Shown: positions 39,380 to 51,084 of the stretch, piece after piece
How positions within the stretch are numbered: position 1 is the stretch's first letter
How the letters are laid out: every line of letters starts with the position of its first letter
Assembly (NCBI RefSeq): GCF_004368405.1
Contig: NZ_SBJH01000010.1
Coordinates: forward strand, 62,001 to 126,000
DNA from: Olivibacter sp. XZL3
Lineage (GTDB): Bacteria; Bacteroidota; Bacteroidia; Sphingobacteriales; Sphingobacteriaceae
Direction: 5' to 3'
DNA length: 64,000 nt
Made by a program: the position numbers and the translations under genes
The notes under the pieces: model-generated
What the model saw: the letters and a program-made list of their open reading frames with translations, nothing else
What the model was told of the DNA's origin: nothing
The model's database searches: none

Positions 39380-40204
39380 ATGAATCGGCTTTTTTCTCTT
39401 TTAGCGTTAGTCTTTCTATTGTCTTCCTGTTCAACTTATTACGTCAGTAAGTTAAATAGCCCCGATCTTGGGAAAAATGAAGAAACCGGGGTGTTCACCT
39501 TTGAAAATGATTCGGTAAGAATAGCTTATAATTTTTTCGGAGAGGATGCGCCTGTCACAATTGATGTGTTTAATAAAATGGACGTGCCTCTCTACATCGA
39601 TTGGCAGCGATCGGCCTTAATTGTAGGTGATCAGGCAACGAGCTATATGGGCGACAACCTCGTGATTAATGGGCGTACTTCTTCGAGTAATTACCGTACT
39701 GTTTATGATTGGCGGCAGTCAAGAGGTGAAGGAACCTTTGATGGAACGGCGACGATTCCAAGAGGACTTACCTTTGTGCCGCCGAAGGCTAAAGTGGAAC
39801 AGACAAAACTGAAACTCGCTAATTTATTCTATGAAGGGATTGCCGATTCGAGCTATCAAAGTGCCGCATTGGCGACTACCGAAGGAACAGTGAAGAAGAT
39901 CAAGGTGCGGGATTATAGCCAAGAGAACACACCGTTGGCATTCCGGAGCTACCTCACACTCTACGTGCAAGATAACACGGATAAGCCGCGGCCCATGATT
40001 TTTGAACAAAAGTTCTATGTAGATCAGATTACCAAGCTTACGATCGAACCGAATAATTTGCTAGGGTTCCGCAGTAAACGAGGCGATACTTTTTTCAATA
40101 AGGAAACGAAGGGCCAAGGTGCGGCGCTGGCTACAGTAGCCGTGGCCGTGGGCGCGTTGGGTTATGTGGCTGAAGAAAGCAGCCAGAGGGCCGATAAAAA
40201 CTAG
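39380..40204 (+). CDS. Predicted lipoprotein of unknown function
   Basis: The 274-residue protein starts at ATG 39380, giving MNRLFSLLALVFLLSSCS, a lipoprotein signal with the cysteine at residue 17. The rest has beta-rich segments (RIAYNFFGEDAPVTIDVFNKMDVPLYIDW) that recall a small beta-sandwich. A short hydrophobic Ala/Val run near the C-terminus (GAALATVAVAVGALGYVAEE) may touch a membrane. Its last 4 bases overlap the convergent gene at 40201. I recognise no family. Confidence 0.75.
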   Translation: MNRLFSLLALVFLLSSCSTYYVSKLNSPDLGKNEETGVFTFENDSVRIAYNFFGEDAPVTIDVFNKMDVPLYIDWQRSALIVGDQATSYMGDNLVINGRTSSSNYRTVYDWRQSRGEGTFDGTATIPRGLTFVPPKAKVEQTKLKLANLFYEGIADSSYQSAALATTEGTVKKIKVRDYSQENTPLAFRSYLTLYVQDNTDKPRPMIFEQKFYVDQITKLTIEPNNLLGFRSKRGDTFFNKETKGQGAALATVAVAVGALGYVAEESSQRADKN

Positions 40205-40563
40205 CCGTTGATTAAGGACTCATTTTTTACTAAAAGGATTTCTTCTTGTTTGATCAATAGGTAGCCATATTCATAACAAAAGTAATATCTGGTACCTTTA
40301 GCGGTGTCGAGCACATGTGTGTGGTGCTTAAAGTCGAATCCCATGTGAGAGAGGTCCGCTTTTAGGACCTTTTTCTTTCCGTCGGGATTGAGGTGCATCA
40401 TAATATGCCTGTTTTTTTTCAGTATAGTGTTTATCCGGCGAATATAGTTTGGATCGTGCTTTTTCAACTTATTGTTGAAGTTACTTCGGCAGGCATCGTT
40501 GCAGAACTTTTTATCTGAACGACCAAATAAGGGCATGTTGCAATCACGGCAAAGACGTTCCAT
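40201..40563 (-). CDS. Small zinc-ribbon protein
   Basis: The 120-residue protein opens with a treble-clef-like zinc site, MERLCRDCNMPLFGRSDKKF then C-NDAC (Cys5, Cys8, Cys21, Cys25), seen in FYVE/DUF2116-type ribbons. The middle is strongly basic (NKLKKHDPNYIRRINTILKKNRH), suggesting nucleic-acid contact, and the C-terminus reads like a small beta fold (TRYYFCYEYGYLLIKQEEILLV). Function unknown. It converges with the lipoprotein gene with a 4-bp overlap. Confidence 0.75.
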   Translation of the reverse strand: MERLCRDCNMPLFGRSDKKFCNDACRSNFNNKLKKHDPNYIRRINTILKKNRHIMMHLNPDGKKKVLKADLSHMGFDFKHHTHVLDTAKGTRYYFCYEYGYLLIKQEEILLVKNESLING

Positions 40564-41405: not shown

Positions 41406-41897
41406 TTATTCCTGAATAATACCTTTAAGGTCGGCAGGAGAGTAATTAACCGATTTCAAGGTTTTGCGGTCTTCTGTTCGGTAGACCAAGTATAAATCGC
41501 CCTGCTGTTCATAGAAACAATCCACGCCTTTGTTTTTGTAGTGAAGTATGGTTGCTTCCGCTTCCTCCAGACTTTTGCACGCCTTGCTCATATTGGAACG
41601 TTGCACTTCGTCAAAAAGGGCTTTGAATTTCTCTGCTAATCCAAATTCCAAAATTGCACCGGATAAAACGTATTGTATATCGCAAAGGGCATCGGCAACT
41701 TCCACAATATCTTTGTTTTGAATGGCTTCTTCCAGTTCTTTCAGTTCCTCGGCTATCAGTGCGACACGCAGCTTGCAACGTTGTTCGCTAGGGATGGTTG
41801 GTTGTCCTAGAATCGGATGTTTAAATGTTTTATGAAATGCTGCAACTGAAGTCAGTGTAACGGGATCTTGCATGATATGTAAATTTTTTCCAAACAT
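41406..41897 (-). CDS. MazG-like / phosphoribosyl-ATP pyrophosphohydrolase-superfamily protein
   Basis: The 163-residue protein has the all-alpha NTP pyrophosphatase pattern: FHKTFKHPI, then RVALIAEELKELEEAI with the metal-binding E-E-x-x-E and, one helix later, EVADALCDIQYVLSGA with the second acidic site. A C-terminal extension (about residues 115-163) is beta-like and not typical of MazG. The enzyme probably hydrolyses a non-standard nucleoside triphosphate. ATG 41873 (MQDPVTL) is an alternative start. It diverges from ssb across a 226-nt spacer with a perfect palindrome. Confidence 0.82.
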   Translation of the reverse strand: MFGKNLHIMQDPVTLTSVAAFHKTFKHPILGQPTIPSEQRCKLRVALIAEELKELEEAIQNKDIVEVADALCDIQYVLSGAILEFGLAEKFKALFDEVQRSNMSKACKSLEEAEATILHYKNKGVDCFYEQQGDLYLVYRTEDRKTLKSVNYSPADLKGIIQE

Positions 41898-41980
41898 AAA
41901 AAAAATGGAGGAGATAATCGCGTGGCAACTGGCATGTCTTATGTTTTTTCATGCGACTTAAGCGTAAGTGATCCCTGGTG

Positions 41981-42010
41981 TAAACGGATATAAACGTTTA
42001 TATCCGTTTA
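41981..42010. promoter_or_regulatory. Perfect 30-bp palindrome in the divergent mazG-like/ssb spacer
   Basis: The left arm TAAACGGATATAAAC is followed at once by its exact reverse complement, with no unpaired centre. It ends 27 nt before the ssb -7 element, so it overlaps the expected -33 region. It looks like an operator for a dimeric regulator. A terminator is unlikely because no T run follows. Confidence 0.75.
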
Positions 42011-42037
42011 TTATACGGCTAGCATTCTCTCAGCACC

Positions 42038-42045
42038 TACTTTTG
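42038..42045 (+). promoter_or_regulatory. Promoter -7 element for ssb
   Basis: TACTTTTG fits TAnnTTTG and lies 78 nt before the ssb start. The place for the -33 box falls at the right edge of the 30-bp palindrome. Confidence 0.5.
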
Positions 42046-42123
42046 TGAAAGCAACAATCGCGATTGACGTAGGATACTTTAAGGGTAACTACAAGTAATT
42101 CTTGATCTAATAAAAAATGTATT

Positions 42124-42474
42124 ATGAGTACTTTAAAAAACAGTGTACGATTGACGGGCTTTTTGGGTAATAAGCCTGAGGTAAAAAAATTTGGAGATAA
42201 CAAATGCTTGGCGCGTGTATCCCTTGCCACCAACGACCGTTATCGAAATCAACGGGGCGAATGGTTAACAGATACGCAGTGGCATCAACTCGTTTTTTGG
42301 GGAAAGCAAGCTACTTTTGTCGAAAAAGCTTTGGACAAGGGCAGTGAAATTTCAATAGAAGGCAGATTGATTAACAGAAGCTACACAGATAAAGACGGGC
42401 TGGTTAAATATACTACCGAAGTGGTTGTTAATGAAGTACAGGCTATCCAAAGAGGCACTGCGCTTGCTGAATAA
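42124..42474 (+). CDS. ssb: Short single-stranded DNA-binding protein
   Basis: The 116-residue protein is an OB-fold SSB: NSVRLTGFLGNKPEVKKFG, ARVSLATNDRYRNQRGEWLTDTQWHQLVFWGKQA, EISIEGRLINRSYTDKDG, and YTTEVVVNEVQ. It stops about there and lacks the flexible linker and acidic tip (DDDIPF type) by which normal SSB recruits repair proteins. It is therefore probably an accessory SSB, with a full-length one elsewhere. It is divergent from the MazG-like gene. Confidence 0.93.
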   Translation: MSTLKNSVRLTGFLGNKPEVKKFGDNKCLARVSLATNDRYRNQRGEWLTDTQWHQLVFWGKQATFVEKALDKGSEISIEGRLINRSYTDKDGLVKYTTEVVVNEVQAIQRGTALAE

Positions 42475-42600: not shown

Positions 42601-43119
42601 TCAAATATTTTTTGTGTTGAAACTTTTTCGAGTGTAAGGGCCCGGCATAGCGTGGTCTCCTTCTTTGAATAAGAAGTTAACAACATTGATATTGGCCAAA
42701 TCGGTGAAAGCATAGGTGGCTTCAGCTAAATAGGTCAATGCGCCGGTCGTGCCCATCTGTTGGGTTAGAAAGGTGGCATTCTGAATACTCACCGAAAGGG
42801 TATCGTGACTAGTTTTGCCGATTTCCAACTTAATTTCCGGATACTTAATGTTTAAGGCTTCGGCAAGCTCCTCCTTGTTTAGCGGAATCTTGCTCTTTTG
42901 TGGGTTCTCTTGTAGTTCGACGCGCGTCGTTGTCGAATCGACAACCGCAATGAAAGGTAACGTTAATGTTTTGCTGGTTTCCGAAAGGTCCTTATCTGTA
43001 TCAGTAGTGCGGGTAGCTCGCTGTTCCTCCTTGTTTCCTTCTTCGTTTCGACAAGCCAAGATGGCAACCGAAGTGAATAGGATGAAGGCAATTCTTTTTA
43101 TTGACTTTTTTGTTTTCAT
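42601..43119 (-). CDS. Predicted lipoprotein of unknown function
   Basis: The 172-residue protein has a lipoprotein signal (KRIAFILFTSVAILAC, cysteine at residue 23) followed by a polar Glu/Thr/Asp-rich linker (about 24-55) and a compact domain from residue 56 to the end. The segment LAEATYAFTDLANINVVNFLFKEGDHA resembles GerMN-like or related small periplasmic domains, but weakly. No clear family. It stands between ssb and an SDR gene. Confidence 0.65.
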   Translation of the reverse strand: MKTKKSIKRIAFILFTSVAILACRNEEGNKEEQRATRTTDTDKDLSETSKTLTLPFIAVVDSTTTRVELQENPQKSKIPLNKEELAEALNIKYPEIKLEIGKTSHDTLSVSIQNATFLTQQMGTTGALTYLAEATYAFTDLANINVVNFLFKEGDHAMPGPYTRKSFNTKNI

Positions 43120-50964: not shown

Positions 50965-51035
50965 TGCCCGATAGTATAAAGGTAGTACAACTGATTTTGG
51001 TTCAGTTTGTCTAGGTTCGAATCCTGGTCGGGCAA
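50965..51035 (+). tRNA. tRNA-Gln (anticodon TTG)
   Basis: A cloverleaf is clear: acceptor TGCCCGA pairs with TCGGGCA, the D arm is GTA/TAC, the anticodon stem ACTGA/TCAGT encloses TTTTGGT with anticodon TTG, and the T arm CTAGG/CCTGG encloses TTCGAAT. The discriminator is A, and CCA is not encoded. It reads CAA codons and, by wobble, CAG. It stands alone, with its own promoter and a terminator 18 nt downstream. Confidence 0.96.
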
Positions 51036-51052
51036 CAAAACGGAAAAGAGAC

Positions 51053-51084
51053 TCGGGTCGTTTTAAAACGACCCGAATTTTTTT
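51053..51084 (+). terminator. Terminator after tRNA-Gln
   Basis: TCGGGTCGTTTT is followed at once by its reverse complement AAAACGACCCGA and a run of seven T. It ends 21 nt before prs and may also reduce read-through into it. Confidence 0.9.

Follow-up and report, generated by a model that had tools for sequence, protein, structure and literature searches.

A 10-bp-phased AAACGnnTA array upstream of a second ssb gene in Bacteroidota and ZnR, its candidate zinc-ribbon regulator

Tandem operators and phased activators are already known, and the closest described layout is that of OmpR at ompF, where tandem half-sites lying 10 bp apart (F1-F2-F3) reach from about -100 nearly to the promoter and are bound cooperatively and head to tail, with the last site located beside RNA polymerase. 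Bacteroidetes promoters have the consensus -33 TTTG and -7 TAnnTTTG, and Vibrio RctB is an iteron-binding replication initiator possessing winged-helix domains. Non-canonical LexA operators of Bacteroidetes, namely CTAA-N5-TTAG and GGA-N5-TCC, are described in the available part of PMC8565304, with Ssb being among the genes for which control through CTAA-N5-TTAG is backed by evidence from several species. According to the available part of PMC6560143, the late competence regulon of Streptococcus pneumoniae (ComX) includes ssbB, comEC and radC, and in Riemerella anatipestifer the loss of ComEC abolishes transformation and the loss of the YifB/ComM homologue lowers it (available part of PMC8459023). 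The open-licence texts on transformation in Bacteroidota, as far as available, name the machinery genes, and no transcriptional competence regulator was found in them.

The window (the whole analyzed stretch of 64 kb from Olivibacter sp. XZL3) contains a perfect palindrome of 30 bp at 41981-42010 (no strand assigned), built from four TAAACG/CGTTTA elements (two of them outer, two inner), the arms of which, TAAACGGATATAAAC and GTTTATATCCGTTTA, form an exact inverted repeat with a spacer of 0. It is indeed located between divergent MazG-like and ssb genes, as stated in the original prediction, and is the longest perfect palindrome of the window, the runners-up having 24 bp (51053-51076) and then 14 bp. 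The 24-bp palindrome lies just downstream of tRNA-Gln (50965-51036) and is probably a terminator; an Rfam search over the window at the gathering threshold yielded nothing but a tRNA. Given the window base composition, perfect arms of at least 15 bp are expected 8e-5 times per 64 kb and 0.007 times per 5.36-Mb genome, in keeping with the claim that such a palindrome is very improbable by chance, although these odds are too strong because TAAACG is directly repeated inside the palindrome at a distance of 10 bp (41981 and 41991), which exaggerates the surprise. In the 5.36-Mb genome the half-site has no exact copy beyond the two arms of the palindrome itself. Searches with the half-site allowing 3 mismatches (174 and 143 matches vs 193 and 186 in the reversed control) and with the direct-repeat pattern allowing 1 mismatch (16 and 27 vs 40 and 28) gave background only and were discarded.

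The palindrome belongs to an array comprising four AAACGnnTA units at 41978-42017 (plus strand) with CG steps at 41985, 41995, 42005 and 42016, i.e. with spacings of 10, 10 and 11 bp, the register having been set from 93 loci described below. The array sits about 110 bp before the ssb gene, hereafter ssb2, and just 5′ of its -7 box TACTTTTG (TAnnTTTG; 42038-42045, plus strand), in which TTTG starts at 42042, 26 bp past the last CG step. The putative -33-position element is CGGCTAG (42016-42022, plus strand), CGACTAA-like in relatives and not the usual TTTG. With the element placed there, the palindrome stops 5 bp upstream of it and does not cover the -33 region, as had been proposed. R1, a sequence-only promoter model made from 63 sequences, matches 41978-42047 with 42.9 bits and an E value of 2e-12, the window array itself being in the training set. 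The ssb2 gene (42124-42474, plus strand) codes for a second SSB of 116 aa (Pfam SSB, E 2.2e-27), which lacks an acidic C-terminal tip and ends in RGTALAE, the main SSB of the genome ending in DDLPF and the third SSB likewise. An SSB domain in a copy extra to the housekeeping SSB and without the acidic C-terminal tip is what we take to define an SsbB-type (competence) SSB, and the window ssb2 possesses each of these sequence features.

For comparison, 110 ssb2 loci were collected, comprising 30 from the genomes of 60 relatives and the best 80 of a longer list from GTDB genomes, the latter belonging to Mucilaginibacter, Daejeonella, Parapedobacter, Flavobacterium, Winogradskyella, Niabella and other genera of several Bacteroidota families; together they give 105 distinct upstream regions. 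It was the search for half-site conservation in relatives, put forward with the original prediction as a check, that revealed the phased array. Pairs of CG exactly 10 bp apart occur 237 times in the 105 upstream regions vs 45.2 ± 6.4 times in dinucleotide shuffles, with an excess also at 11, 20-21, 30-31 and 41 bp, and the control stretch from -700 to -400 contains 41 pairs at 10 bp, its most frequent spacings being 21 and 15 bp with 71 and 70 pairs, respectively. The array was scored by a rule demanding a CG 26-28 bp before TTTG together with at least one further CG in phase, which was passed by 93 of the 105 distinct regions. A looser search at 24-32 bp gave a spacing of 27 bp in 80 of 94 and of 26 bp in 7, with no spacing found in 11 upstream regions. 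The 12 regions failing the rule, some of which (L035, L133 and L144) show an array on inspection by eye, were left out of the logo. Among the 87 arrays having the 27-bp spacing, the columns that played no part in selection show almost no variation (A at -14 in 100%, A at -34 and -44 in 98%, T at -7 in 97% and T at +4 in 100%), giving the unit AAACGnnTA. The units follow one another at 10 bp, with a final step of 11 bp, in arrays as long as about 60 bp, the last unit lying 26-27 bp ahead of TTTG in the -7 box, so that half-sites are repeated at 10-11 bp upstream of a promoter, which is the tandem layout of the OmpR/PhoB type.

A two-unit pattern with at most 2 mismatches matched 10 of 11 genomes, each including a site at ssb2; two other sites, one before a recombinase gene (G005) and one inside a TonB-receptor-like gene (G003), are considered background because the reversed control gave 7 matches in the same genomes. 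A broader pattern used on 18 more genomes gave background-level matches where ssb2 is absent, as well as extra arrays in G021. Run over the 60 genomes, R1 had its best match at ssb2 in 34 (E 1.4e-22 to 1.3e-3), a result obtained by construction for those genomes since 27 of the 63 R1 rows come from them. Neither G052 nor the plasmids described below contributed training rows, and the ssb2 site of G052 scores E 5.5e-10, being one among many matches in that genome.

Perfect symmetry over 30 bp is found in 3 of the 93 arrays (L019, which is the window locus, L076 and L136), and in five arrays of the window's genus (L019-L022 and L027) the longest palindromes are 30, 14, 14, 4 and 24 bp, two of the five reaching 24 bp. 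Random recombination of units gives a palindrome of at least 30 bp in 2.1% of draws for the 18 Sphingobacteriaceae-type arrays and in 0.055% for all 93; for at least 24 bp the respective value for the 18 arrays is 4.9%. As 6 of the 93 arrays, which come from related loci, reach at least 24 bp vs 0.28% of draws for all 93, symmetry is somewhat enriched, which may reflect the use of the array in both directions. An operator of the conventional symmetric kind, serving a dimeric repressor or activator at the window locus only, is consistent with this enrichment, with the perfect 30-bp dyad of the window and with the 46-bp perfect palindrome formed by an Adhaeribacter plasmid array (L431), but the dyad is not conserved, the phase being kept in 81 of 93 arrays with longest palindromes of at most 14 bp, and it is several units rather than two half-sites that are conserved, which makes such an operator improbable. 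The symmetrical regulator of the original prediction thus gives way to a 10-bp-phased array; its proposed operator for ssb has good support in the location, the conservation and the fixed spacing to the -7 box, symmetry not being the conserved feature. Judging from the arrays compared, evolution keeps the 10-bp phase and not the dyad symmetry, and the palindrome is one local form of the array.

The SOS operator of Bacteroidetes, bound by non-canonical LexA, resembles the array in coming from the same phylum, in being palindromic and in having ssb as a target in several species (PMC8565304, available part), and CTAA-N5-TTAG does occur in 4 of the 105 ssb2 upstream regions. Despite that, LexA operators are short single dyads and the array is a long 10-bp-phased repeat differing in sequence and period, CTAA-N5-TTAG is missing from the remaining 101 regions, GGA-N5-TCC is present in 6 of 105, and neither motif is found in the window ssb2 upstream region, which leaves an SOS operator very improbable as an explanation. 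The four regions with CTAA-N5-TTAG are L023, L027, L119 and L131, the motif overlapping the -33 element beside the array in L023, L027 and L131, suggesting dual control by the array and the SOS system in a few species.

Divergent from ssb2 in the window is the gene coding for a MazG-like protein (Pfam PRA-PH; 41406-41897, minus strand), found, within the window's genus only, in the flank of 4 of the 110 ssb2 loci vs 66 of 110 for ZnR, the candidate regulator discussed below. The MazG-like neighbor is incidental as far as gene neighborhoods can tell, and the link to nucleotide quality drawn through it finds no support. A lipoprotein-like ORF downstream of ssb2 (42601-43119, minus strand) lies beside ssb2 in 8 of 110 loci, and a short-chain dehydrogenase gene is present in 19 of 110 flanks.

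ZnR (40201-40563, minus strand), a protein of 120 aa with a predicted treble-clef zinc-ribbon and winged-helix-like architecture, is encoded two genes from ssb2 in the window. In all 66 flanks with a homologue its gene is divergent from ssb2, and in 50 of them it starts at most 330 bp from it; the fetched flanks extended up to 1.5 or 2.5 kb, and the window's own ZnR, lying outside the L019 flank, was scored as a miss. A ZnR homologue is present in the flanks of 64 of 98 loci passing the array rule (duplicates included) vs 2 of 12 failing it (L033 and L133). The ZnR profile A2, made from 51 sequences, matched 39 of the 60 genomes, of which the weak matches in G041 and G045 were set aside, leaving 37. 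The presence of ssb2 was assigned from score, alignment start and neighborhood, and that of the array from an R1 match at ssb2, with the weak array of G040 (E 1.3e-3) being counted. In raw counts over the 60 genomes, kinship being ignored, ZnR and the array occur together in 35, ZnR only in 2 (G028 and G055, both having ssb2 and no recognizable array), the array only in none and neither in 23; ZnR and ssb2 occur together in 37, ssb2 only in 1, ZnR only in none and neither in 22. The sole genome with ssb2 and without ZnR is G059 (91% complete), which has no recognizable array. The best R1 match reaches E <= 1e-3 in 34 of the 37 ZnR genomes vs none of the 23 others, several ZnR-negative genomes being reduced or incomplete. 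In three genera there is one genome with both genes and another with neither (G034/G010, G006/G030 and G011/G035).

It is quite reasonable to suggest, on this comparative sequence evidence, that ZnR is the array-binding regulator of ssb2, the probability being about 0.66. The protein has four invariant cysteines (C5, C8, C21 and C25), and the AlphaFold2 model, with a pLDDT of 91 (92.9 for the C-terminal domain alone), predicts a four-cysteine region, a long helix and an alpha/beta domain. Foldseek searches for ZnR in the PDB and viral libraries gave nothing at E <= 0.001, and the ZnR profile had just two insignificant matches among the sequences of solved structures; partial matches to the N-terminal zinc knuckle include HNH and homing endonucleases. 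The best VIA-align match of residues 36-120 is to RctB domains 2-3 (5ubf) with Z 5.0-5.2 and rmsd 3.3-3.6 Å over 74-77 residues, which is in the uninformative range, followed by yeast Stn1 with Z 4.4-4.5, too weak for membership; both are presumably DNA-binding proteins of the winged-helix type. RctB is a replication initiator and membership of ZnR in its family is not claimed. Chains of the MarR, ArsR and TrmBL2 types gave Z 2.0-2.5 only. The probable treble clef of Pfam DUF2116 scores 14.6 bits for ZnR, 25.3 for a paralogue (L416) and 19.9 for a plasmid homologue, all under the curated cut-off of 26.8.

This shortage of a clear DNA-binding family match would agree with some other regulator, e.g. 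an OmpR/PhoB-type response regulator with 10-bp half-sites, binding the array, with ZnR being its partner or a co-regulated gene, and the array, which has a half-site on every turn between about -95 and -37, is arranged like F1-F3 of OmpR at ompF. Several observations point the other way. No array-positive genome without ZnR is found among the 60, two ZnR paralogues adjoin another phased repeat (CCGAT every 19-20 bp; L149 and L152), and on 5 of 5 plasmids ZnR is immediately preceded by the array, no SSB match being present in the stretches concerned. Regulation by another protein is therefore rather unlikely. The plasmid ZnR genes, found by tblastn with the window ZnR, are on five records, one each from Pontibacter kalidii, Adhaeribacter swui and Rufibacter tibetensis and two from Persicobacter, with R1 E values for the arrays of 2.6e-9, 1.3e-7, 1.8e-7, 2.4e-6 and 4.6e-6. 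The stretches around ZnR in which no SSB match was found comprise 3.6-5.3 kb, and the five plasmids are not among the 60 ssb2 plasmid matches listed (at least 5000 records).

With ZnR as the regulator, the proposed mechanism would be as follows. The array would be an operator in the ssb2 promoter, the palindrome being part of it, and ZnR monomers, with the treble clef and the winged-helix-like domain, would cooperatively occupy four to six units along a single DNA face, with one monomer for each helical turn, until the last ZnR contacts RNA polymerase at the non-consensus -33 element and ssb2 is switched on. This differs from OmpR, a phosphorylated winged-helix response regulator, in that ZnR is a 120-aa zinc-ribbon protein with no receiver domain and in the half-site sequence. 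Activation is favored because the CGACTAA-like sequence at the -33 position departs from the usual TTTG and, given ZnR as the regulator, is the probable mode of action, judged from position alone; repression, or an effect on both znR and the gene divergent from it, is the less probable alternative. At loci with divergent ZnR, the array may in addition control znR itself. Such autoregulation is uncertain because ZnR genes separated from ssb2 (that of the window and six further regions, read by eye) have no array of their own and because on 4 of the 5 plasmids the better-scoring strand of the array points to the divergent gene and not to ZnR.

This divergent gene codes for a tyrosine recombinase on three plasmids according to Pfam, and on a fourth the ORF, cut by the record start, looks alike by eye; on the fifth plasmid an IS110 transposase lies on the divergent side of the array. 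A recombination site or DNA-structure element, whether att-like for a tyrosine recombinase or a cruciform, is consistent with the array bordering tyrosine recombinase genes on these four plasmids and on five chromosomes, with inverted copies about 15 kb apart in G021 and many interspersed copies in the genus g41, as well as with a recombinase in the flank of 2 of the 110 ssb2 loci, both of one lineage (L037 and L103), where a tyrosine recombinase of the array-linked kind is located directly behind ZnR on the same strand and next to ssb2. The other 108 flanks contain no such recombinase, a search of the window's genome for the G005 recombinase gave no homologue at E <= 1e-40, the distance of 26-27 bp to the -7 box is kept in 93 ssb2 loci, and a cruciform would leave the fixed phase, the fixed spacing and the link to ZnR unexplained; we regard this explanation as highly doubtful. 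The idea that the array is tied to one recombinase family was rejected, since among 13 genomes with a homologue (E <= 1e-40) the array lies upstream only in G005 and G021 (15 loci less L204 and L206). The two inverted copies in G021 (contig C21; L198 at about 2282 and L199 at about 2167) share flanks and resemble the array before the tyrosine recombinase of that genome (L211), and are possible recombination or inversion sites.

As to what ZnR would control, the proposed output is a DNA-acquisition program in which ssb2 would be a competence-type SSB; this is suggested by the array being located before comEC and comM in g41 and before tyrosine recombinase genes on plasmids and some chromosomes, and competence or DNA acquisition has about an even chance of being the biological output. 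The number of R1 strand matches at E <= 0.01 is 50 in G052, 27 in G060 and 29 in G061, the three g41 genomes, of which 23 sites in G052, 17 in G060 and G061 and a few more were inspected, many being interspersed intergenic repeats by eye. The array precedes comEC (PF03772), a DUF2851 gene and an XerA/integron-type tyrosine recombinase gene in 3 of 3 genomes, comM in G052 (TIGR00368) and G061 (97% identical), an M3 peptidase gene in G052 and G061, and ssb2 in G052, ssb2 being absent from the fetched stretches of G060 and G061. DUF2851 appears in the context of salt tolerance in the available parts of the open-licence literature. The arrays before comEC and, in G052, ssb2 recall the pneumococcal ComX regulon (PMC6560143, available part), which belongs to another phylum and another regulator, and ComEC and YifB/ComM of the Riemerella transformation set are both array-linked in g41, although that set includes neither ssb2, ZnR nor a named transcriptional regulator in the available part of PMC8459023. 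For comEC and comM outside g41, the search gave no such array: the comM, comEC and DUF2851 loci of 30 other ZnR genomes (88 of 90 loci, L354 and L414 being left out) contain no convincing array, with just two weak overlapping R1 matches in one locus (L355), between the end of the upstream gene and a terminator-like hairpin. The competence link thus comes from one genus and from gene functions. Many of the intergenic repeats in G052 (L248-L277) and in G060 and G061 (L309-L324) have a central ssb2-type array, outward -7-like boxes and GC-rich ends; some lie between convergent genes, and they may be an array-built mobile or small-RNA-producing element.

Second ZnR copies are found in G000, G005, G011 and G017, and also in G051 and G052. 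In the first four genomes the neighbor divergent from the second copy has a UPF0758_N domain of the RadC type; two of these four partners also pass DUF3276 and the other two are similar to it N-terminally by eye (DUF3276/PUR-like). The intergenic regions beside the paralogues contain CCGAT at 20-bp steps in G000 (L149/L416) and, in G011 (L152), at steps of 20, 19 and 20 bp, which is suggestive of paralogue-specific phased operators, as judged by the repeats. CCGAT spaced by 19-20 bp is absent from those of G005 and G017 (L150 and L151), the region in G005 having a weak R1 match (E 1.5e-4).

Somewhat less likely than not is the broader possibility that ZnR founds a family of small zinc-ribbon/winged-helix regulators across Bacteroidota and their plasmids, polymerizing with one molecule per turn on phased arrays that differ between paralogues (AAACGnnTA every 10 bp at ssb2, comEC, comM and tyrosine recombinases, and ~20-bp CCGAT beside RadC-like genes), and that it is also the first transcriptional regulator of competence or DNA acquisition found in the phylum. 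If true, one small gene and a readable promoter array, both kept across families and also on plasmids, would provide a handle on how Bacteroidota control the handling of incoming single-stranded DNA, and a DUF2116-like protein of unknown function would be a candidate for a family of transcription factors whose DNA code is readable from sequence. No description of the array, of ZnR as a regulator or of its targets, and no mention of DUF2116, was found in the open-licence literature, which lacks most subscription papers.

Many 5′ leaders of ssb2 (e.g. L030, L032, L029, L086 and L116) have a TCGTCG/TGTTGA-like start just past the -7 box and a potential 5′-terminal hairpin, the pairing of which is apparently kept by eye while the sequence varies.
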